DNA of 64,000 bases from Planctomycetaceae bacterium (GTDB lineage: Bacteria > Planctomycetota > Planctomycetia > Planctomycetales > Planctomycetaceae): positions 124,001-188,000 of the forward strand of contig JAKFWC010000019.1 of assembly GCA_021732975.1 (NCBI GenBank), written 5' to 3'. How positions within the stretch are numbered: the stretch's first letter is position 1; each line of letters starts with the position of its first letter. Positions 23,738 through 37,894 of this stretch are shown here, piece by piece. The notes below the pieces were generated by a model. It had not been told where the DNA came from, ran no database searches, and saw only the letters and a list, made by a program, of their open reading frames with translations. Position numbers and translations under genes: made by a program.

Positions 23738-24117
23738 AACAATTTCCCTCAATGTGAGTTACGGCGATAAATTCACCATTTATGAAGGGATCCATGCCGT
23801 CACGGTACTGCAAGGACGATCGGTAAGCTGACATTAACCCTTGCGTTGGAAACACTTACGGGCGAGATTTCGCTCTTGCGTTGCCGAAAAATCGCCGCGA
23901 GAATGCAGGAACGGGCGGGTTTTTGACAGTCGGGCACTTCCAATTTTCTGAAATCGAAGAATCGCCCGATTTTCCTGCGAACGTTCCCCTCGGCCTCGAC
24001 TGTTACTTTAGCAGATGTGGCCAATGGAATTCGTCTGAACGATTCGCTCGAGACATCGACAGGGCGGTAACTAAAACAGACGGGTTCCTGTGGCCCTCGA
24101 CGGAAAGGTCATTCAGT
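23738..24117. other. 380-bp divergent intergenic region
   Basis: Lies between the divergent SDR and DUF1549/DUF1553 genes. A TTGACA hexamer occurs at 23923-23928 on the + strand, but the 17-bp-spaced -10 candidate (ttctga) is weak. No RNA gene or repeat was recognised. The long open frame that extends through it from 23881 lacks family similarity upstream of ATG 24118. Confidence 0.4.
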
Positions 24118-25785
24118 ATGTGGGGATGGCGTGTGACGCAACGAGTGATGGGGTGGGCCTTCGCTGCCGGATTGATGTTGTCCGGGGCGGTCGCGGTGGA
24201 TGCGGCCGAACAGGAATTCACCACCGGTTCGTCCGATGTGATCATCCAGTTCATTAATCAGCAGATTCGGCAGTCGTGGACGGATAACGAAGTCCAGCCG
24301 TCAGCGGTTGCTGATGATGCGGAGTGGATTCGCCGCGTCTATCTCGACCTCGTCGGCCATATCCCGCCGGTGGAAGATGTTGAGGTGTTCATCGCCGACA
24401 AAGATAAGGCGAAGCGGGCGAAACTCATCGACAAGCTGCTCGATGAGCCGGGTTATGTCCGCAACTGGACGACGATCTGGACCAATCTCTGCATCGGTCA
24501 GGACACGCCGCGGTTTGTCAGCCGCGACGGCATGCAGAAGTTCTTCCGCGAGGCCTTTGGGCGCAACCGGCCGTGGAAAGATATCGTCGCCGACATCGTG
24601 ACGGCGGAAGGTCACTACGAACAAAACGGTGCCGTAAACTTCATCCTCGCACAAATGCAGGACCGTGACGACGGCGTGCAGCTCACTGCGAAAACCTGCC
24701 GCCTCTTCATGGGCATGCAGGTGCAATGCACACAGTGTCACAACCATCCGTTCAACGACTGGAAGCAGGATCAGTTCTGGCAGTTCAACAGTTTCTTCCG
24801 TCAGACCGACAAGCAAGACCACCGCAAGTTCAACCCGCAAACCGGGCGGATGGAAGATGACTACGCCGAAGTGAAATGGCGCGATTTCAATGGCCCGGTC
24901 TACTTTGAAAAACGCAACGGTTTGATGCAGGTCGCGTTTCCGATTTATCTCGGTTCGGAAATTGACCCCGGTGCCGGAACTGAACGCCGCAAGGAACTTG
25001 CCCGGCTGATGACCTCCGGCGATCGTCCGATGATTGCTCTCGCGTTGGTCAACCGCTTGTGGGGTCACTTCTTCTCGTACGGTTTCACGCGGCCGATTGA
25101 CGACATCGGCCCGCACAATCCGGCGACGCATCCCGAACTGATGGACCGCCTTGCCGACGAATTTGTGAAGAGCGGCTACGACATGAAGCAACTGATGCGG
25201 TGGGTCACCAATTCGGAAGCCTACAACCTCACCAGCAAGGGTCTGGCGAAGAAGAACGAAAAAGACAACCCCGCCGCGGGGGAAACGGCCCTCTTCACGC
25301 ACATGTATGTGAAGCCGATGACCGCCGAGCAGTTGTACGATTCGCTGATTGTCGCCACGAATGCCCACAAGTCGGGGCGGTCCGGCTGGGAGCAATCGGA
25401 ACGGCAGCGTCAGCAGTGGATGCGGCAGTTCGTCAACGCCTTCGGCAATGACATGGCGGAAGAAAGCAATTCCTTCGACGGCACGATCCCGCAAGCGTTG
25501 ATGATGATGAACACGAACCCCAAGCCGAACAACGATACGCCGACGTTGATGTCCGGCGCGGTCAGCCTCGAAGCCGGCAGCCATCTTACCGAGTTGCTGA
25601 CAGGTCCCAGCTCCGACGTGCAGAAGATTCAAAAGCTCTATATGTCGGCTCTCAGCCGGATGCCCAACCGGGCGGAATTGAACGGACTGCAACGGTTCGT
25701 GAAGTCCTCCCGCGATCAGAAGGCCGCATATCAGGACATCTTCTGGGCATTGCTGAACTCGAACGAATTCATTCTGGTGCATTAA
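24118..25785 (+). CDS. Secreted DUF1549/DUF1553 protein with CxxCH
   Basis: 555 residues from ATG 24118, preceded by GGAAAGG. Signal peptide about residues 1-30 (ending VDAAE). DUF1549 runs from about 38 to 245 and contains C203-x2-C206-H (VQCTQCHNHPF), a c-type haem motif; DUF1553 follows (about 285-550). Unlike the protein at 2618 it lacks the PSCyt1 and LamG domains. Its partner DUF1501 gene lies 126 bp downstream. The C-terminus (ending in NSNEFILVH) is closely similar to that of the anti-sigma fusion at 27933-30074, so the two are paralogues. Presumably exported; reaction unknown. Confidence 0.92.
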   Translation: MWGWRVTQRVMGWAFAAGLMLSGAVAVDAAEQEFTTGSSDVIIQFINQQIRQSWTDNEVQPSAVADDAEWIRRVYLDLVGHIPPVEDVEVFIADKDKAKRAKLIDKLLDEPGYVRNWTTIWTNLCIGQDTPRFVSRDGMQKFFREAFGRNRPWKDIVADIVTAEGHYEQNGAVNFILAQMQDRDDGVQLTAKTCRLFMGMQVQCTQCHNHPFNDWKQDQFWQFNSFFRQTDKQDHRKFNPQTGRMEDDYAEVKWRDFNGPVYFEKRNGLMQVAFPIYLGSEIDPGAGTERRKELARLMTSGDRPMIALALVNRLWGHFFSYGFTRPIDDIGPHNPATHPELMDRLADEFVKSGYDMKQLMRWVTNSEAYNLTSKGLAKKNEKDNPAAGETALFTHMYVKPMTAEQLYDSLIVATNAHKSGRSGWEQSERQRQQWMRQFVNAFGNDMAEESNSFDGTIPQALMMMNTNPKPNNDTPTLMSGAVSLEAGSHLTELLTGPSSDVQKIQKLYMSALSRMPNRAELNGLQRFVKSSRDQKAAYQDIFWALLNSNEFILVH

Positions 25786-25911
25786 CGCATCCAGTGGAAA
25801 TACCGCTGCCTGCATCGCCGGCGTGATGCTGTTCGATGCTGATGACGGATCGAATTACCCTGCCATAATTGAAACTCGCGCACGATAAACTTTGATTTTC
25901 AGGAACTCGCC

Positions 25912-27222
25912 ATGTCTCTCTTTTCATCGACGCCGGACGGAATGTCGCGCCGCCACTTCATGGGGCATCTCGCGGCCAGCGCTGCGACGATTCCCGCGTT
26001 GAACTTCATCGCTCACGTGAAAGCCAACGCCGCCGAACTGAAGAAGAAGAACAAGGCGTGCATCCTGTTGTGGATGAGTGGCGGACCGCCGTCGATCGAC
26101 ATTTGGGATTTGAAGCCGGACTCCAAGAACGGCGGGGAATTCAAGCCGATTTCGACAAAGGGCAACCTGCAGATCAGCGAGCACATGCCGAAGACCGCCG
26201 GGGTGATGAATCACCTCTCCGTGGTCCGCGCTATGAGCACCCGCGAAGCCGACCACAACCGCGGCCGGTACTACATGCACACCGCCTATGTGCCGAACCC
26301 TACCGTGGTTCACCCGGCGTTCGGTTCGGTCGTCAGCTATGAACTCGGATCGCAACGCAAAGAACTCGAAATCCCGGCGTTCGTCTCCATCGGCGGCGGC
26401 GGCACCAGCCCCGGCTTCATGGGGATGGCCCACGCTCCGTTCCTCGTCGACACCTCCGGCCGCATCCGCAACGCCGACATGGACGATGTGTCGCCGGAAC
26501 GGCTGCAGCAACGCCTGTCGATGCTCGGCGTCATCGAAGACGATTTCATCAAGTCGAACCGGGGCGAGTTCCCGCAGGCCCATAAGGACATCTACAAGAA
26601 GGCCGTCAACCTGATGACCTCGAAGCAGATGGACGCCTTCAAGGTCGATCAGGAAAAGCCGGAAACCCTCGCCATGTACACCGGGGCACCGGCCCAGGGC
26701 GGCATGATGGGTGGCGGTGGTCAGTTCGGTCGTAGCCTGCTGATGGCCCGCCGGTTGGTCGAAACCGGAGTGCCGTTCGTGGAAATCGATTTCGGCGGTT
26801 GGGACTTGCACCAAGGCGTCTTCAACAACCTGAAGACCCAGAAGTTGCCGGCCCTTGACGCCGGGATCTCTGGTCTTGTCAATGACCTGAAGCAACGCAA
26901 CATGCTCGATGATGTCTGCATCGTGTGGATGGGCGAGTTCGGCCGTACGCCCCGAATCAACCAGGACGTGGGTCGCGATCACTGGGCCAAGAGCTGGTCG
27001 GTGATGATCGGTGGCGGTGGCCTCAAGGGTGGCGTCGCGGTCGGTGAAACCAACAAGGACGGCGACGACATCGCCACCGACAAGACCTACCTGCCCGGCG
27101 ATGTCTGGGCGACCGTCGCGCATCAACTCGGCATCCCGCTGGAAACCGTGCATCAATCGAAGCGCGGCCGTCCGATGAAGATCGCCAACGGCGGCGCCGC
27201 GATCAAGGAACTGTTGTCGTAG
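25912..27222 (+). CDS. DUF1501 protein with Tat signal
   Basis: 436 residues. [19 protein letters not shown] at the N-terminus is a twin-arginine signal. DUF1501 landmarks: [18 protein letters not shown], the [19 protein letters not shown] segment, VDIFGGWDLH-like [12 protein letters not shown], and [20 protein letters not shown] towards the end. It pairs with the DUF1549/1553 protein just upstream. Good AGGA site before the ATG. A strong terminator follows 29 bases after the stop, marking the end of this two-gene operon. Confidence 0.93.
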
Positions 27223-27250
27223 ACGGCAAGTGAGATAGGGCCAGCGCGAT

Positions 27251-27282
27251 CTCGGGGGGCTGACAACAGCCCCCCGAGTTTT
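27251..27282 (+). terminator. Rho-independent terminator
   Basis: ctcggggggct and agccccccgag form an 11-bp GC-rich stem with a six-base loop (27251-27278), followed directly by TTTT (27279-27282). It ends the DUF1549/1553-DUF1501 operon and separates it from the sigma-factor gene. Confidence 0.9.
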
Positions 27283-27361
27283 CCAGTCCGCAGTGAGTGT
27301 GAAAGAGAATACGGAAATCTGTGGATCATCTTGATTTGAATTGCTTGATGGGCAATAGGAC

Positions 27362-27919
27362 GTGACCACCAGCGGCATTGATACACTCGGTGAAACACCG
27401 TCGGGTGAATTGCCCACCGATGATTTCGTTTCGTTGTTTTCGCGCTATCAACGCCGGTTGTTTTTGTACATCCTCACTCAAGTCCCGCATCCGGTGGATG
27501 CCGAAGAGATTTTGCAGGAGACCAGCGTCGTCATCTGGCGGAAGGCCGCGCAGTTTCAACCGGGGACGAACTTTTTTGCGTGGGTGTCGCAGGTAGCGAA
27601 TTTTGAGGTGATGAAATACCGCAGTCGCCGCAAACGCGAGAAACTGCAGTTTAGCGATGAATTTATCGCCCAGGTGGCAACGGAAGCCGTGGCCCGCGCC
27701 GATGAATTAGAACTTCGCCGCAATGCGTTACTGCACTGCATTGAGAAGCTGCGACCGCAAGATCGCGAGCTGATTCAACAACGGTACGCCCCGGGAGAAA
27801 CGGGCAAGAACCTCGCCGAATCAAAGCACCGTCCGGCGAATTCGGTGTATCAATCACTGGGCCGCATCCGCCGCACCTTGTGGGAATGCATTCAACGACA
27901 GTTGGCTGTTGAAAGTTGA
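27362..27919 (+). CDS. ECF RNA polymerase sigma factor
   Basis: 185 residues from GTG 27362. Region 2 (about 20-90) includes DAEEILQETSVVIWRKAAQF and FFAWVSQVANFEVMKYRSRRKR; region 4 (about 120-178) includes LHCIEKLRPQDRELIQQRYAPG and the recognition helix around NSVYQSLGRIRRTLWECI. This is the planctomycete-type ECF subfamily found beside FecR-like or PSCyt/DUF1549 genes. The AGGA before the start is only one base away, so the exact start is not certain. The membrane partner starts 13 bp downstream. Confidence 0.92.
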   Translation: MTTSGIDTLGETPSGELPTDDFVSLFSRYQRRLFLYILTQVPHPVDAEEILQETSVVIWRKAAQFQPGTNFFAWVSQVANFEVMKYRSRRKREKLQFSDEFIAQVATEAVARADELELRRNALLHCIEKLRPQDRELIQQRYAPGETGKNLAESKHRPANSVYQSLGRIRRTLWECIQRQLAVES

Positions 27920-27932
27920 GCTTCAAAGAAAA

Positions 27933-30074
27933 ATGACTACCCGTCCCGCTGACCACGAACGCCTGCTGACACTGCTCGATGCGGTGTGCGAAGAGCGTGC
28001 GTCCGCAGCGGAGTATGCCGAGATCGAGCGGTTCGTAACGGCCTCGGCGGAAGCCCGGTGGGTCTACCTGACATACCTCGATCTGCACGGCACGCTTTCA
28101 TGGGATGCCGGTGGCGGCCTGGGAATCACTCCGCCGGAGACCATCACCGTACAGCCTGCCCCCGCGACTTCTCGAAGATTCGTCGCGCGCTCGTCCAGAG
28201 TGGTCTTGGCCGTCGCCGCATGTGTGATTGCCGTTGCAGTCGGAATCGCCCTGTGGCCGCGTGAACCCGCGGTACCGATGGCGGGCCATCAACCCGCACC
28301 AATCGACGATGATCGCGACTTTCGTCGTCCGTCGACCGGGGTCGCCGCGGTACCAAAGAAGCCCGTCCGGTTACGGCAGACGCCGAACACCAACGATCCG
28401 GACATGAACGCGGTTCGATCAACCGCTCCAATCATCGCGACACATAACGGCGATCCGTCAACGCCGCGACCGACACCGCCGACGACTGGTAACGGTTCGG
28501 GCCGTGGTTCACTCGATCGCGCGGTCGCGACGGTCGATCAGCTTTTCACCGACAGTTGGCAGCGTTTGGAGGTGCAGCCGACCACGAAAGCCGACAACGC
28601 CGAGTGGGTGCGGCGAGTACATCTCGATCTTGTTGGGCGCATCCCGACGGTCCCCGAAGTGGAAGCGTTTCTCGCCGATGCTTCGCCGGGCCAACGTCGC
28701 AAGTTGGTCGATTCGCTCCTCGATGGTGGAGACTACGCTCGCAACTTCGCTGGCGTGTGGAGCAACCTGCTCATCGGTCGGCATCCGCAACAACGCGTCA
28801 ACCGGCCGGCCTTTGAAAAATTCCTGCGGATGAGTTTCGCTGCGAATCGCCCATGGAACACGATGGTCGCGGAGATCGTTGGTGCCGATGGTCGGACCGA
28901 TCAGAACGGGGCCGCCAACTTTCTGGTCGCGCATCTCAATAACCAGGCGGTTCCGGCGACGGCGATCACCGCCCGCGTGTTCCTCGGCATCCAGGTCCAG
29001 TGTGCGCAGTGTCACAACAACCCGTTGAATGACATGAAGCAGGCGACCTTCTGGGAACTCAACAGCCTCTTCCAGCAGACCGACAGCATTGAACGCTGGG
29101 TGCGCGATCCCCGCACGGGTCGCAACGAATATGCCTTCACCGAACTGGTCAACAAACCCGAAGGAGGACCAATCTTCTTTGAAGCCCAGAACGGCTTGAT
29201 GAAAGTCGCGTTTCCGCGGTTTGCGGGTCAAGAAGTCGACGCCGGTCCGGAAATTAACCGTCGTGGCGAACTGGCCCGCATCATGACCGAAGGCGAACAG
29301 CCGCAACTGGCTGCGGCGTTCGTGAATCGGCTGTGGGCTCATTTTCTTGGTGCGGGTTTCACCAATCCCATCGACGACATGCCCATTGACGAAACGGGGT
29401 CTCACAATCCGCCCAGCCATCCGGAAGTGCTCGATCATTTGTCGAAGGAGTTCATCTCCAGCGGTTACGACGTGAAGCACCTCATCCGGTTGATCTGTGC
29501 CAGCGCCCCGTATCAGCTCAGCAGTCATCCGACGGCGACTTCCACAAACGATGACCCTGCGAATGGGGAGTTGCCTTCGTTCACGCGGGCCTACTTGAAG
29601 CCGATGACCGCCGAGCAGTTGTACGATTCGCTGGTGACCGCCACGCGGGCGCACGAAAGCCGAGTGAGTGATTGGGAAGCCGCCGAAGAACAACGCCAAA
29701 AGTGGATGGACCAATTCGTGGTCTCGCTGGAAAACGACGAGAACGACGAGCAGGGGACGCTCTCCGGCACGTACGCCCAGGCCCTCATGCTGATGAACGG
29801 CGAACTCATCGACCGGGCGCTCGATTTGTCGCCGGGCACATTTCTGGGTGAACTCATCCGCGACAAACGGTCGGAGACCGACAAGATCCGCCGCTTATGC
29901 ATCGCCGCGTTGTCTCGACAACCAACGGCGAAGGAGTTCGCCGCGATGCAGAAGATCGTCCGCGAAGCCGGCGCGGCGAAGAATCGCCCCGGTTCGCCGC
30001 GCGGTCCGGGCAGCGGTTACCAAGACCTTTTCTGGGCTCTCCTCAACGCCAACGAATTCGCGCTGGTGCATTGA
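27933..30074 (+). CDS. Transmembrane anti-sigma-like protein fused to DUF1549-DUF1553
   Basis: 713 residues from ATG 27933. Residues 1-60 are a helical cytoplasmic domain like the N-terminus of planctomycete anti-sigma/FecR proteins (LLTLLDAVCEERASAAEYAEIERFV ... LTYLDLHGTL). One membrane helix lies at 88-107. A Pro/Thr-rich linker (about 108-200) leads to an extracytoplasmic DUF1549 with C357-x2-C360-H361 and then DUF1553 to the end. The ectodomain is a clear paralogue of the protein at 24118-25785. With the sigma factor 13 bp upstream, it probably holds or releases the sigma factor in response to a periplasmic signal; that is inference. Confidence 0.88.
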   Translation: MTTRPADHERLLTLLDAVCEERASAAEYAEIERFVTASAEARWVYLTYLDLHGTLSWDAGGGLGITPPETITVQPAPATSRRFVARSSRVVLAVAACVIAVAVGIALWPREPAVPMAGHQPAPIDDDRDFRRPSTGVAAVPKKPVRLRQTPNTNDPDMNAVRSTAPIIATHNGDPSTPRPTPPTTGNGSGRGSLDRAVATVDQLFTDSWQRLEVQPTTKADNAEWVRRVHLDLVGRIPTVPEVEAFLADASPGQRRKLVDSLLDGGDYARNFAGVWSNLLIGRHPQQRVNRPAFEKFLRMSFAANRPWNTMVAEIVGADGRTDQNGAANFLVAHLNNQAVPATAITARVFLGIQVQCAQCHNNPLNDMKQATFWELNSLFQQTDSIERWVRDPRTGRNEYAFTELVNKPEGGPIFFEAQNGLMKVAFPRFAGQEVDAGPEINRRGELARIMTEGEQPQLAAAFVNRLWAHFLGAGFTNPIDDMPIDETGSHNPPSHPEVLDHLSKEFISSGYDVKHLIRLICASAPYQLSSHPTATSTNDDPANGELPSFTRAYLKPMTAEQLYDSLVTATRAHESRVSDWEAAEEQRQKWMDQFVVSLENDENDEQGTLSGTYAQALMLMNGELIDRALDLSPGTFLGELIRDKRSETDKIRRLCIAALSRQPTAKEFAAMQKIVREAGAAKNRPGSPRGPGSGYQDLFWALLNANEFALVH

Positions 30075-30083
30075 ACTTGACCA

Positions 30084-32003
30084 TCAAGCTGGTGGTTCGT
30101 CTGGCACGGGTTTGCACGAGTACGGATACAACAGTGCGGAGCCGAGAGCGATGAGCACTCCCCCGCCGATGGCGGGTGCGAGATGCTTGAACGACGTGTA
30201 TCCGACGGCGAAATGAATGCCGATTGCGGCCGTATAACCGATTCCGCCGGCCGTCGTGAGCAACCACCACTGCCAGGCTTGGGCGCGACGCAAGCCCCAC
30301 AGCGAAAATAAGAGCACGCACACGCCGGTGGAAATCAGCATCCCGCCGAAGGTCGCCCGGTCATGGGCAATGAGCGGAATCAGTCGTGGATTGGCAGCAT
30401 TCAAATCCGCCGCACATAGTTCCAGGAACTCCAGATCCTCCGGAACAAACACGTGCGTGGCACCGATGGCGGCAATCACCAACCCGGCGACGAGCAGAAT
30501 CATGCCGTGAGTGATGTAGAGCAGTTGTCCCCACTGTGCGGCACGCCATGCCGCGTCTTCCCGTAGATCAGCGGACGGCATTGTCATTGCCGGCTCTAAC
30601 GGAGTGACCAGCGACAGCAGCAGAAACTGAAACAGAACGGTAGTGACGAACGCGTGGAAAGGGTCGAAGTATCCGAACCCAAGAAAGAGAAAGAAGCTGA
30701 AGAACCCCGCGAAGGCCGACGCTTGCATGGCGATCTGCGCCCAATGCCGCCCTACCCGAACGGCATTCCAGCTCAAGCCGATGTAGATCCAGCCCAGGCT
30801 CAGCATTGTCCCGGCAAGGGTGAAGCGGTCGTGCGTCATGAAGGGCAATAATCGTGGCGAGATGTCCACAAACTCGGCGCGCATCATCCCGACATACTGC
30901 TCATCGTACGGCAAGACCACGCGCGTCACCGCCAAGACCAGGGCCAAGCCGCCTCCAGCCAGCAGACTGAGTCCCATTAGCAACAGCCACGCCCAGCTTC
31001 GTTGCAGCATTGGTGGCGATGGAGCAATGTATGATCGCGACATTCGTCCCAGAAGAGCTTCATTGGTCCGTTTCACCAACCCGGGTCCGGAATAGACGAG
31101 CCCCGTATCAATGGCGGCAAGGTCTGCCCCCGTGTGGCGGTGCGGTCTCAGAATCGATAGAGCATCGATCGGATCGGTCAGCCCTCCGGAAATGAGCATA
31201 GGTACCGCCGGGCCGATGTCCTCGCGGATCAGATCGACGATCCGTTGGATCTTCTCGGGCTGTAAGCGCGACCGTTTGCAGCCAGTCTCGGTGAGAGTCG
31301 CCACATCGAGCACGACCCCGTCCGGTGCAGCCCGTTCCGTCAACAACGCCGGAGACTGGGCTTCAACGGCATCCATCGGCAGACAGCACCAGACGTGTGA
31401 AGTAGCCGCGGACCGTCTTACGGTGTCACGCTGTTCCATCCAGAAGTTTAGTCCCGCTTCCGTGTTCGTCAGCGGAAGGGCAAAGACATCGACCCAATCC
31501 GCCAGTTGGGCGATGGCGACGGTCAACGTGCGGACATCGGGTGGCAGTCGACAGAAGATTCGCGGCGAAGTCACCGTTCGTTCGGACCGACAGCCCACAG
31601 GCTTCAAATTCTGTATCAATTCATCCACGTTGACGACGCAAGTCCCGGTTTCATTCCAACCGGCATCCGCCACCAGTCGCGTGGTTGTCGGCAGGCATGT
31701 GGGTCCAATTCCGATCGGACCGACTTCCAGGAAACCGACGCCGAATTGGGCCAGCGCTCCGGCGGCCATACCGGCAGGATCGAGACCGGCGCTAAGACCA
31801 ATCGGCCCCGCGAATTCGAGCATGCCGACAGTCCATTGCAAGCGGGGGTCAGGTCGCATGTGGCCGAGCGCATCGACAATCCCGCGACCGATTGCCGTTC
31901 GCGCGAGTTGTCCCATCGACTGCAAAGCGATCCACCGCGCCGTGTCTGCCGGCAGGGCAAACAGCAGTGGTCGCAAAACCGTGCGATAGGACCAGTCGGG
32001 CAT
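30084..32003 (-). CDS. Dihydroorotate dehydrogenase-like domain fused to duplicated membrane domain
   Basis: 639 residues from ATG 32003 (GAGGA eight bases upstream). Residues 1-320 resemble quinone-type PyrD: IGLSAGLDPAG, GVGFLEVGPIG, the FMN-phosphate loop ISGGLTDPIDAL (271-282) and IDTGLVYSGPGLVKRTNEAL. Key residues differ: the family Lys of AGLDK is Pro76, the NRMGFNN loop is missing, and the NISSPN catalytic segment reads VFALPLTN. It is therefore probably not a working DHODH. Residues 335-630 hold about eight membrane helices in two repeats, each with PRL(L/I)P..(A/T)HDR (383-393 and 539-549). Function unknown. Upstream frame extension to 32660 has no start site or similarity. Confidence 0.85.
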   Translation of the reverse strand: MPDWSYRTVLRPLLFALPADTARWIALQSMGQLARTAIGRGIVDALGHMRPDPRLQWTVGMLEFAGPIGLSAGLDPAGMAAGALAQFGVGFLEVGPIGIGPTCLPTTTRLVADAGWNETGTCVVNVDELIQNLKPVGCRSERTVTSPRIFCRLPPDVRTLTVAIAQLADWVDVFALPLTNTEAGLNFWMEQRDTVRRSAATSHVWCCLPMDAVEAQSPALLTERAAPDGVVLDVATLTETGCKRSRLQPEKIQRIVDLIREDIGPAVPMLISGGLTDPIDALSILRPHRHTGADLAAIDTGLVYSGPGLVKRTNEALLGRMSRSYIAPSPPMLQRSWAWLLLMGLSLLAGGGLALVLAVTRVVLPYDEQYVGMMRAEFVDISPRLLPFMTHDRFTLAGTMLSLGWIYIGLSWNAVRVGRHWAQIAMQASAFAGFFSFFLFLGFGYFDPFHAFVTTVLFQFLLLSLVTPLEPAMTMPSADLREDAAWRAAQWGQLLYITHGMILLVAGLVIAAIGATHVFVPEDLEFLELCAADLNAANPRLIPLIAHDRATFGGMLISTGVCVLLFSLWGLRRAQAWQWWLLTTAGGIGYTAAIGIHFAVGYTSFKHLAPAIGGGVLIALGSALLYPYSCKPVPDEPPA

Positions 32004-32099: not shown

Positions 32100-32630
32100 A
32101 TGCATCGCCGCCGTTTCAATTACCAGAATCGGAACGCTATTCTGACAGGACGAAGATTCTCGAGTTCGGCCGTGCGCACGGGGTTCCCTTTGAACAAAGC
32201 CTTCATTCGCGAATCCGATGATGGACCGACGCGGTGTCCAAAGTGTGGGACCGCGGGGATTGCGGTACGGGCTGAAACGCTGGCGGCTCAGATTTCTGCG
32301 ACCGCCCGGCAGCGCGTGTCGGATGCGGCGTTCTTCTGCGGCGATGAGGTGTGCCCCGTCGTCTATTTCGATGCGTTCGGTGGGACAGTCTTGCGGGACG
32401 AATTCACGACGCCCATCGCGGGGAAGGATTGGGACGCGCCCTTGTGTGCCTGCTTCGGACTCACACGACCCGATGTTGAAGCGGATGTCGTCGAGGGGGG
32501 CGTCACCCGCACCAAGGCGGCGGTGCTGCGCGCCCAGTCGGACGAAGCCCGCTGTCAAACCCGCGCCCCGAATGGTCAGTCGTGTTTGTCGGCGGTACAA
32601 GGGTATTACTTGAAGTGCCGAAACGGCTAA
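32100..32630 (+). CDS. CopZ-like Zn/[2Fe-2S]-binding protein
   Basis: At most 176 residues. The pattern CPKCG ... CGDEVCPVVYFD ... LCACFGLTRPDVEADV matches the N-terminal zinc/[2Fe-2S] domain first described in Archaeoglobus CopZ, where it reduces and binds copper for delivery to CopA. The C-terminal C...NGQSCL motif is common in stand-alone bacterial versions. There is no HMA domain. The first 40 residues from ATG 32100 are not part of the domain; GTG 32172 or TTG 32190 may be the true start. A copA gene lies in the same window but 14 kb away. Ends directly before a perfect palindrome. Confidence 0.8.
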   Translation: MHRRRFNYQNRNAILTGRRFSSSAVRTGFPLNKAFIRESDDGPTRCPKCGTAGIAVRAETLAAQISATARQRVSDAAFFCGDEVCPVVYFDAFGGTVLRDEFTTPIAGKDWDAPLCACFGLTRPDVEADVVEGGVTRTKAAVLRAQSDEARCQTRAPNGQSCLSAVQGYYLKCRNG

Positions 32631-35592: not shown

Positions 35593-37536
35593 CTACCGCC
35601 ACAACCACCACTGACGCCGCACGGCGTCGATCAAATCGTGGAACCACACGTATCCCAACGGTCGGTGACCGCACTGAATCCGCGGCCATACGGTGGCTCC
35701 CGGCCGCAATTGCGAAAGTTGCCGGCGATCAAATGCAATGGTGACCCGCACGGTGCTTTCACCCCGATCATTAATCTCCGCAACGCGCGCCACATTCTCG
35801 ACGCGGCCGATCAGCGTCCGTCCCGGTTCCGTGCTCGACACGAATTCGACGGGCAAACCGTTGGGATCGACTCTCGCAGCGAAGAGATGTCCCACGTGGC
35901 GCTCGCGGACTCGGGCCGTGATTTCCCAATCGCCCGCGGTGTTGCCGATGGTCAGCAGCACCTGCCCACGTTCGACGGGTCGGCCAGCCAACAGGGTTTC
36001 GACATCCCACGTCAGCACTTGTCCGGCAATCGGACTCGTCAGATTCCACGCGGCTCGTTCGGCATCAAGCAGTTCGTTCTGGCGCGTCAGCGAATCGCGT
36101 TGATGTTTGAGGTCTTCTTCTTCGCCAGCGAGTTGTTGCAGGCGGAGAGTGGTCTCTGCGGCGCTGGAAACCGGGGTGATGCGAGCCGCCTGGACGGTAC
36201 TCAACCGCGCCCGGACGGTGGCCAGCTCCCCGGTGACTCGCGCGGCTTCGAGTTCGATCGCCGGATCCCGCAAGCGGACCAGCGGTTGTTGCAACGTCAC
36301 GTGATCGGCATGTCGAACGGATACGGTTTCTACGATCCCATTCGCGGTGGCAAACACATCGCGCCGTTCGACCGGAACCATTTCTCCTTCGGCATGAATC
36401 ACCAGCGGTGCCGGGATGATGGCGAGTGCGATCAGCGCGGCCAGTGCCACGCTACTCCATACGGTCCAACGACGGATGCGTGGTGATCGAGTCGGGCTTC
36501 CACGGGAGAACCAACGGTTCCAGGTTGATCGTTCGGCTTCCGCCAGTGCCGCCCACCACGGGGTGACGGTTGTCGCCAGGCGGGCCACTTGCTGCTGCCA
36601 TGCTTCGGGAATCGTTGTTCCGGGAGTGAAGCGTTCGGCGATGATCGTTCCCAGAATACCGCCGCGCGGATGACGCAGCGGGACCACAACGGCGGCCTGC
36701 GTCCCCGCGACCGACACCAGTTGATCCCAGGCGATAGTCGTGGCGTTGGTCAGTTCGGGCGCGGGAAAGGACAGCGGTCCTTCCGCAGTGAACGTGGCTT
36801 GTGCGAGTCCTTCGAGCGCTTGCAGGGTCGACGACCGCGGATCGAGAGTTTCTACGCCGCTGACCGCGACCGCCTGCAGGCGCTGACCCGAACATTGCAG
36901 CACGGTGATGCGGTCGGCCTGACACAGCGCGCGGCCATCATGGGCGATGATTCCCGCGATCTGCGTCGAGCGCGAGGCACTCGTCAGCGTGGTTTCCCAT
37001 CGCTCCCACTGTTGCCGTTCACTTCGTTCCTGTCGCAAGCGGCGCAATTCGTGTTGAACGAGAAAGTCGCCGGTGAGTTCGCTCAGCGCGCCACAAAACG
37101 GAACCAGAGTCGCCGCCGGGACAGGCAGCGTGTTCCCATCAAACTGCGCGGCAAGCACTCCCGTCGCCTGTCCCGCCTGGCGAACCGGTCCCGTAATCCG
37201 TTGCCCGGATCGAGAATCCTCCTGGAAACGCGCGACCGTCATGCCGTTGCCGGTCAGCGCTTCGGTGATCCAGTTTGGGAGATGTGGCACCCGTTCAGAA
37301 GTTAGGGAACCATCGCGCTGGGACACGGAAAGGGTCAACCGCGTCCAAGCGTCTTCGCTGGTTCGCAACCAGACCGAGGCTTCATCGGCGCGAGCGGTGT
37401 GGACGAGCAAACCCAACAATTCGCGCAAGAACTGGGTCGGTTCGACATCGCTCGGCACCCGTTCCGCCAGCTCATCGATCCCGCGCTCCAGCGCAGAGAT
37501 CGAAAGCGGCGATGGATCGGAGTGCGAAGCGTTCAT
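35593..37536 (-). CDS. GAF domain-HlyD membrane-fusion hybrid protein
   Basis: 647 residues from ATG 37536. The N-terminal 330 residues hold one or two GAF-like sensor domains (LLGLLVHTARADEASVWLRT; RITVLQCSGQRLQAVAVSG ... AAVVVPLRHPRGGILGTIIAE). A single membrane helix (about 372-390, VALAALIALAIIPAPLVI) leads to a periplasmic adaptor: barrel-sandwich hybrid start (EGEMVPVERRDVFATANGIVETVSVRHADHV, quoted in parts), a coiled-coil hairpin (about 440-500) and closing lipoyl/beta-barrel units. This joins cytoplasmic sensing to an efflux or secretion adaptor. The TolC-like gene is divergent upstream; no ABC or RND pump gene is adjacent. Confidence 0.85.
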   Translation of the reverse strand: MNASHSDPSPLSISALERGIDELAERVPSDVEPTQFLRELLGLLVHTARADEASVWLRTSEDAWTRLTLSVSQRDGSLTSERVPHLPNWITEALTGNGMTVARFQEDSRSGQRITGPVRQAGQATGVLAAQFDGNTLPVPAATLVPFCGALSELTGDFLVQHELRRLRQERSERQQWERWETTLTSASRSTQIAGIIAHDGRALCQADRITVLQCSGQRLQAVAVSGVETLDPRSSTLQALEGLAQATFTAEGPLSFPAPELTNATTIAWDQLVSVAGTQAAVVVPLRHPRGGILGTIIAERFTPGTTIPEAWQQQVARLATTVTPWWAALAEAERSTWNRWFSRGSPTRSPRIRRWTVWSSVALAALIALAIIPAPLVIHAEGEMVPVERRDVFATANGIVETVSVRHADHVTLQQPLVRLRDPAIELEAARVTGELATVRARLSTVQAARITPVSSAAETTLRLQQLAGEEEDLKHQRDSLTRQNELLDAERAAWNLTSPIAGQVLTWDVETLLAGRPVERGQVLLTIGNTAGDWEITARVRERHVGHLFAARVDPNGLPVEFVSSTEPGRTLIGRVENVARVAEINDRGESTVRVTIAFDRRQLSQLRPGATVWPRIQCGHRPLGYVWFHDLIDAVRRQWWLWR

Positions 37537-37894
37537 GCCAGCACTATATCGGGTCACGACGTAACACGGCAGCCGTCGCGCCCACGACCGAGTTGCATCG
37601 GTCTGGCCTCTGTTGCCCCGTCTGCGAAGGTTCTCGGGGTTCTCGGCGCTTCACTGAATCCTATCCACAATTCGTCGATCATGGTCGCGTCTCGCCATTT
37701 TCCCCGACACGAACAGTCTCTCAGCTTTCGCTGACCCGCAAAGTCGCGCGAATCTGCGGCGTTTGTGCGGTGCTGTTGGCGCGGTTGTCGAGATCGTGCC
37801 GGAGATTCCGTGGGTACCGACTCTGACGGTGACCGATGAGTTATTCGAACGGGCGGGGGAGACTGCGCACCAATCAGGATGGGGTTCACATCGG
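37537..37894. other. Divergent intergenic region between adaptor and TolC-like genes
   Basis: 358 bases with no recognised gene, RNA or long repeat. A short direct repeat (ggttctcgg, twice near 37630-37645) is the only pattern seen. It probably contains both promoters, so the adaptor and the outer-membrane factor may be co-regulated. Confidence 0.4.

Follow-up and report, generated by a model that had tools for sequence, protein, structure and literature searches.

A dihydroorotate dehydrogenase-like pseudoenzyme fused to an internally duplicated membrane module in several bacterial phyla

What is made by a gene that resembles a dihydroorotate dehydrogenase (DHODH) gene at its beginning and a membrane-protein gene at its end? 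Such a gene lies in a 64,000-nucleotide stretch of the genome of a Planctomycetaceae bacterium (GCA_021732975.1, contig JAKFWC010000019.1, positions 124,001 to 188,000), which as a whole is referred to here as the window. A preliminary description had proposed a DHODH-like pseudoenzyme joined to an internally duplicated membrane domain, and had suggested a flavin or ligand sensor or a redox component acting on something other than dihydroorotate. The minus strand carries the gene, with an ATG at 32003, a GAGG about ten bases 5′ of this start codon and a stop codon at 30086-30084, and its translation gives a product of 639 aa. With a 61-sequence alignment as input, AlphaFold2 (AF2) modelled the full protein with a mean pLDDT of 91.6, a pTM of 0.92 and eight long helices, and the membrane half modelled alone reached a pLDDT of 93.8 and a pTM of 0.91. 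The features are as follows.

30084..32003 including the stop codon, minus strand: whole gene, class-2 DHODH-like pseudoenzyme plus eight-transmembrane (8-TM) module, 639 aa (translation; 74 full-length homologues; AF2 pLDDT 91.6)
31854..32003, minus strand: residues 1-50, comprising the MPDWSYRT start plus the N-terminal helices H3-15, H19-35 and H37-47 (alignment, AF2)
31038..31853, minus strand: residues 51-322, barrel of DHODH type lacking catalytic, substrate and flavin-ring residues (Foldseek, hhalign, site counts)
31200..31703, minus strand: residues 101-268, middle of the barrel, evolving fast, with a mean identity of 0.155 (identity, dN/dS)
31056..31190, minus strand: residues 272-316, kept phosphate loops SGGLTDP...GADLAAIDTGLVYSGPGLVKRTNEA (alignment, site counts)
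30606..30998, minus strand: membrane repeat 1, helices 336-360, 385-413, 420-438 and 448-466 (AF2, conservation, hhalign)
30825..30833, minus strand: HDR motif 1, residues 391-393, conserved 61/61 (alignment)
30108..30554, minus strand: membrane repeat 2, helices 484-516, 541-569, 576-600 and 605-630 (AF2, conservation, hhalign)
30357..30365, minus strand: HDR motif 2, residues 547-549, conserved 61/61, H547 being the first of three conserved histidines (alignment)
30213..30215, minus strand: H597, conserved 61/61, second of the three histidines in repeat 2 (alignment)
30183..30185, minus strand: H607, conserved 61/61, third of the three histidines in repeat 2 (alignment)

Homology to class-2 DHODH extended across the whole barrel and the N-terminal helices (profile E 2.6e-35 to 7ut5). 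Alignment to true class-2 PyrDs with hhalign covered the whole barrel at a probability of 100% (E 9.7e-51), and Foldseek gave E 6e-11 and a TM of 0.72 for the DHODH-like half. The helices of residues 1-50 are equivalent to the membrane-docking/quinone helices of class-2 enzymes; in the family alignment, MPDW.Y, G39 and G47 of this segment were invariant and H48 nearly so. The GG loop and the TGLVYSGPGLVKR phosphate loop were retained in the window protein, as expected from the earlier claim that the barrel and its phosphate loop had been kept. The lysine of AGLDK is replaced by Pro76 and the threonine of GT(V/I)T by Pro96, and the NRMGFNN, NxSSPN, K(I)AP and TNT motifs are absent from the window protein. 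Relocation of the catalytic residues elsewhere, the outcome that the preliminary description had set against its own proposal, was ruled out: two profile alignments paired all of these motifs with unrelated residues and restored none of the catalytic residues at other positions.

We then scored ten sites of E. coli PyrD (K66, T86, N111, N139, N172, S175, N177, K217, T245 and N246), which have catalytic, substrate and flavin-ring roles. None was kept in 54 of the 75 aligned members, one in 19 and two in 2, compared with 9-10 in 16 true class-2 PyrDs, 13 of which were taken from fusion-bearing genomes. The equivalents of Lys66, Thr86, Asn139, Asn172 and Lys217 were substituted in nearly all members, and that of Tyr318 was His, Asp or Asn. 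The S175 column holds Ser in all 16 true PyrDs; 13 of the 75 members also have Ser there, lacking the surrounding motif, and the window protein has Asn. The window protein scored 25.8 bits against Pfam PF01180, under the cut-off of 27, and its best score among the NCBIfam class-2 models (cut-offs 200-619) was 84.1 against a cut-off of 267. A complete pyrD does exist elsewhere in the genome, since a separate, normal class-1-type PyrD with NISCPN is encoded on contig 19 (L001), which rules out the fusion as the sole pyrD. Likewise, a second strong DHODH-family (PF01180) gene was present in all 28 fusion-bearing genomes checked. At the level of sequence, pseudoenzyme status is well supported, and this part of the preliminary description stands. 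The fusion protein is accordingly read as a membrane protein and probably not a dihydroorotate dehydrogenase.

The C-terminal half is an internal duplication, as had been proposed. The HDR motifs at 391-393 and 547-549 are spaced by exactly 156 residues, the AF2 helices fall into two sets of four, and the two repeats are homologous (hhalign 99.3%, E 2e-20, score 121.5; 30 block-shuffled controls scored 21.5 at most). Loop charges were net negative on the outer side and net positive on the inner side, and this positive-inside pattern supports an N-in topology. Among the residues that 60 or all of the 61 sequences share are Y366, D367, H391-D392-R393, D447, H450, D523, H547-D548-R549, H597, Y602 and H607, and all of them lie near predicted outer helix ends in the AF2 helices and the alignment. 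The conservation of these features among 61 diverse homologues shows that they are not due to chance. The window module had no match in Pfam, where the best stray hit was E 0.0044 in one of 28 cases and stand-alone modules also had none, and NCBIfam gave no match above cut-off. Among PDB folds the best Foldseek result for the module was E 0.25 with a TM of at most about 0.26, and no match to the membrane half was found among the viral folds of BFVD.

A search for stand-alone copies of the HDR-repeat domain was successful. Five stand-alone 8-TM modules (L007, L008, L103, L104 and L108) formed, in an unrooted tree, a clade of their own that holds none of the fusions (SH-aLRT 100), a pattern consistent with a single fusion event. 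A further stand-alone module, L018 (G161:C1:4356798-4357676), contains one in-frame TAG between its repeats, so that two open halves result; the gene is broken or else naturally split. Chloroflexota encode single-repeat 4-TM homologues, as do plasmids of Arthrobacter and of haloarchaea (L109, L110, L112, L151-L157). Their match is to repeat 2 (E 1.6e-18, hhalign probability 99.1%), and each of the 10, archaeal ones included, has three histidines aligned with H547, H597 and H607. These single-repeat proteins have no Pfam or NCBIfam model.

A scan of 84,980 species genomes gave 305 loci that encode relatives of the membrane half, and we retained the best 80 of the 305. Among these 80, 74 were full-length fusions, all starting with [M/V/L]PDW[S/T/F]Y, and several of the others are cut off by contig ends. 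Judged by record titles and tree origins, the full-length fusions came from five phyla, Planctomycetota, Bacillota, Verrucomicrobiota, Acidobacteriota and Chloroflexota; Armatimonadetes contributed a fused fragment that ends at a contig edge, and Actinomycetota a shortened fusion on a Mycobacterium plasmid. Occurrence was patchy: the fusion was rare in genome samples of four phyla, and the gene was missing from two near-complete genomes that belong to the same genus as the window. In one genome (L005/L012, G028:C56) the fused gene spans two reading frames within the phosphate-loop region, owing to a frameshift or an assembly error.

Conservation was uneven along the protein. Mean identity to the window protein was 0.48 for residues 1-100, 0.155 for residues 101-268, 0.47 for residues 269-322 and 0.49 for the membrane half, whereas true class-2 PyrDs were even across the barrel regions (0.45, 0.48 and 0.48). 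In close pairs, dN/dS was 0.11-0.48 in the barrel middle and mostly 0.03-0.2 elsewhere, indicating weak constraint, and not neutrality, in the barrel middle. The computed selection was strongest on the N-terminal class-2 helices, on the phosphate loops adjoining the membrane domain and on the membrane module, and the fusion is under purifying selection across several phyla. Within the phosphate loops, the second G of the GG loop (the G297 equivalent) was kept in 70 of 75 members, the T/S319 equivalent in 67 of 75 and GP in all 75. Arg152, where PyrD has Asn, is near-invariant (73/75), hinting at a pocket that may have been repurposed. Much shortened barrels occur in a Chloroflexota protein (L107, 569 aa) and in a Mycobacterium branderi plasmid protein (505 aa, a half-barrel); both retain the PDW..Y start, the GPGW motif and the membrane module, and both were nested within the fused clade of the tree.

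Gene neighbourhoods named no function. Clustering of ORFs at the 80 loci found no conserved neighbour around the fusions, yielding only antisense ORFs of the fusion gene itself and clusters limited to related genomes, such as those of Cohnella, and conserved operon partners were rejected as a source of a functional assignment. Near the single-repeat relatives we found a copper-chaperone-family gene with DUF1326 (L118), a ferritin gene (L120) and an ArsR/SmtB regulator gene, and on three haloarchaeal plasmids the single-repeat gene follows an OsmC gene and a methyltransferase gene. These neighbours, which are few, distant and anecdotal, offer a hint of metal or redox stress. In the window itself, a divergent neighbour of the fusion gene at 32100-32630 encodes a CopZ-type zinc-binding domain protein (PF18423). 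At 23881-30074, two copies of planctomycete DUF1549/DUF1553-type genes flank DUF1501-like and sigma-factor-like genes, the Pfam assignment covering 27909-30074 only. At 35593-37557, a GAF domain is joined to an HlyD-type membrane-fusion domain in one protein.

We consider it reasonably probable that the fusion is a working membrane module with an outward ligand site, capped by a dead cytosolic DHODH barrel with a docking or regulatory role. The membrane module would be the working part, and a metal, a haem or some small polar ligand would bind at an outward-facing site formed by its invariant His, Asp, Arg and Tyr; we infer the geometry and the ligand of this putative site from the sequence and the helix ends. 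On the cytosolic face, the dead barrel would act as a docking or regulatory cap, holding and perhaps modulating the helices via its phosphate-binding loops. That most members keep these loops so well counts against such a cap, as a mere scaffold would not need them. The chief alternative is that the protein is a ligand sensor or a regulated transporter: with its kept phosphate loops the barrel would bind a phosphorylated metabolite, such as FMN, a nucleotide or some other phosphate ester, and gate membrane transport or signalling. We regard it as a genuine possibility, though an unlikely one, given that the phosphate loops persist in most of the family: the GG loop, the SGLVYSGPGL loop and the near-invariant Arg152 would suit it, as would the high confidence with which the two halves are packed (pTM 0.92). 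However, the barrel middle, the expected seat of specificity, is poorly conserved, and the branch of the Mycobacterium plasmid protein and the Chloroflexota L107 has dispensed with most of the pocket while keeping the membrane module. The data fit both the cap or scaffold and the phosphate-ligand sensor. More doubtfully, the 4-helix unit with three outer-face histidines may represent an undescribed membrane metal/haem-binding superfamily of Archaea and Bacteria, which would have been duplicated into an 8-helix form and have captured a dead DHODH as a cytosolic sensor or cap that is now eroding in some lineages.

The redox proposal of the preliminary description, here taken as a flavin component with an altered substrate that would still bind FMN and hand its electrons on to quinone or the membrane histidines, would account for the retention of both the phosphate loops and the class-2 N-terminal helices. 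It is nevertheless improbable as a family-wide function because the flavin-ring residues are gone, with the Lys66, Thr86, Asn139, Asn172 and Lys217 equivalents replaced in nearly all members and that of Tyr318 changed to His, Asp or Asn, and because a half-barrel branch exists. Two reports describe dead paralogues that tune active enzymes, namely trypanosomatid AdoMetDC and deoxyhypusine synthase (PMC6221367, PMC3663545). A fusion that binds and regulates the true PyrD in this manner would be in keeping with the active-type DHODH-family gene in every fusion genome tested (28/28), but we think it very improbable: the barrel middle is not conserved, and in several genomes, including the window's own, the best DHODH is of class 1, a more distant subfamily. 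Catalytic loss, patchy distribution and the absence of the gene from two near-complete genomes of the same genus might suggest a decaying pseudogene or an annotation artefact. We give this hardly any credence, as it is refuted by the open frames of 74 full-length homologues across phyla, by dN/dS values well below 1 in all regions and by the invariant motifs.

The family bears on annotation, since it is open to being annotated as dihydroorotate dehydrogenase although it lacks the catalytic machinery and is found in several phyla; one Cytobacillus plasmid copy is annotated simply in this way. A metabolic reconstruction in which the fusion is taken for pyrD would be in error wherever no other match exists. 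The fusion is also a clear example of how a metabolic enzyme became a domain of a membrane protein, with intermediate stages of barrel loss still extant. The family to which the membrane half belongs extends into Archaea and has no model, solved fold or known function. Among the open-access papers searched, a set that lacks most subscription papers, we found no description of a fusion between DHODH and a membrane domain, nor of a DHODH pseudoenzyme. The combination is conserved across several bacterial phyla, so the fusion probably has a function at the membrane.

Compared with class-2 PyrD (TIGR01036, PRK05286, PF01180), the fusion shares the barrel, the N-terminal helices and the phosphate loops, but lacks the catalytic Ser, the substrate Asn, Lys66, Lys217 and the other flavin-ring contacts, and has the C-terminal 8-TM module in addition. 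The single-repeat 4-TM proteins differ from it in having one repeat, no full HDR motif and no DHODH domain. The stand-alone 8-TM modules are likewise without a DHODH domain, unlike the fusion, but have the same two-repeat domain and both HDR motifs.
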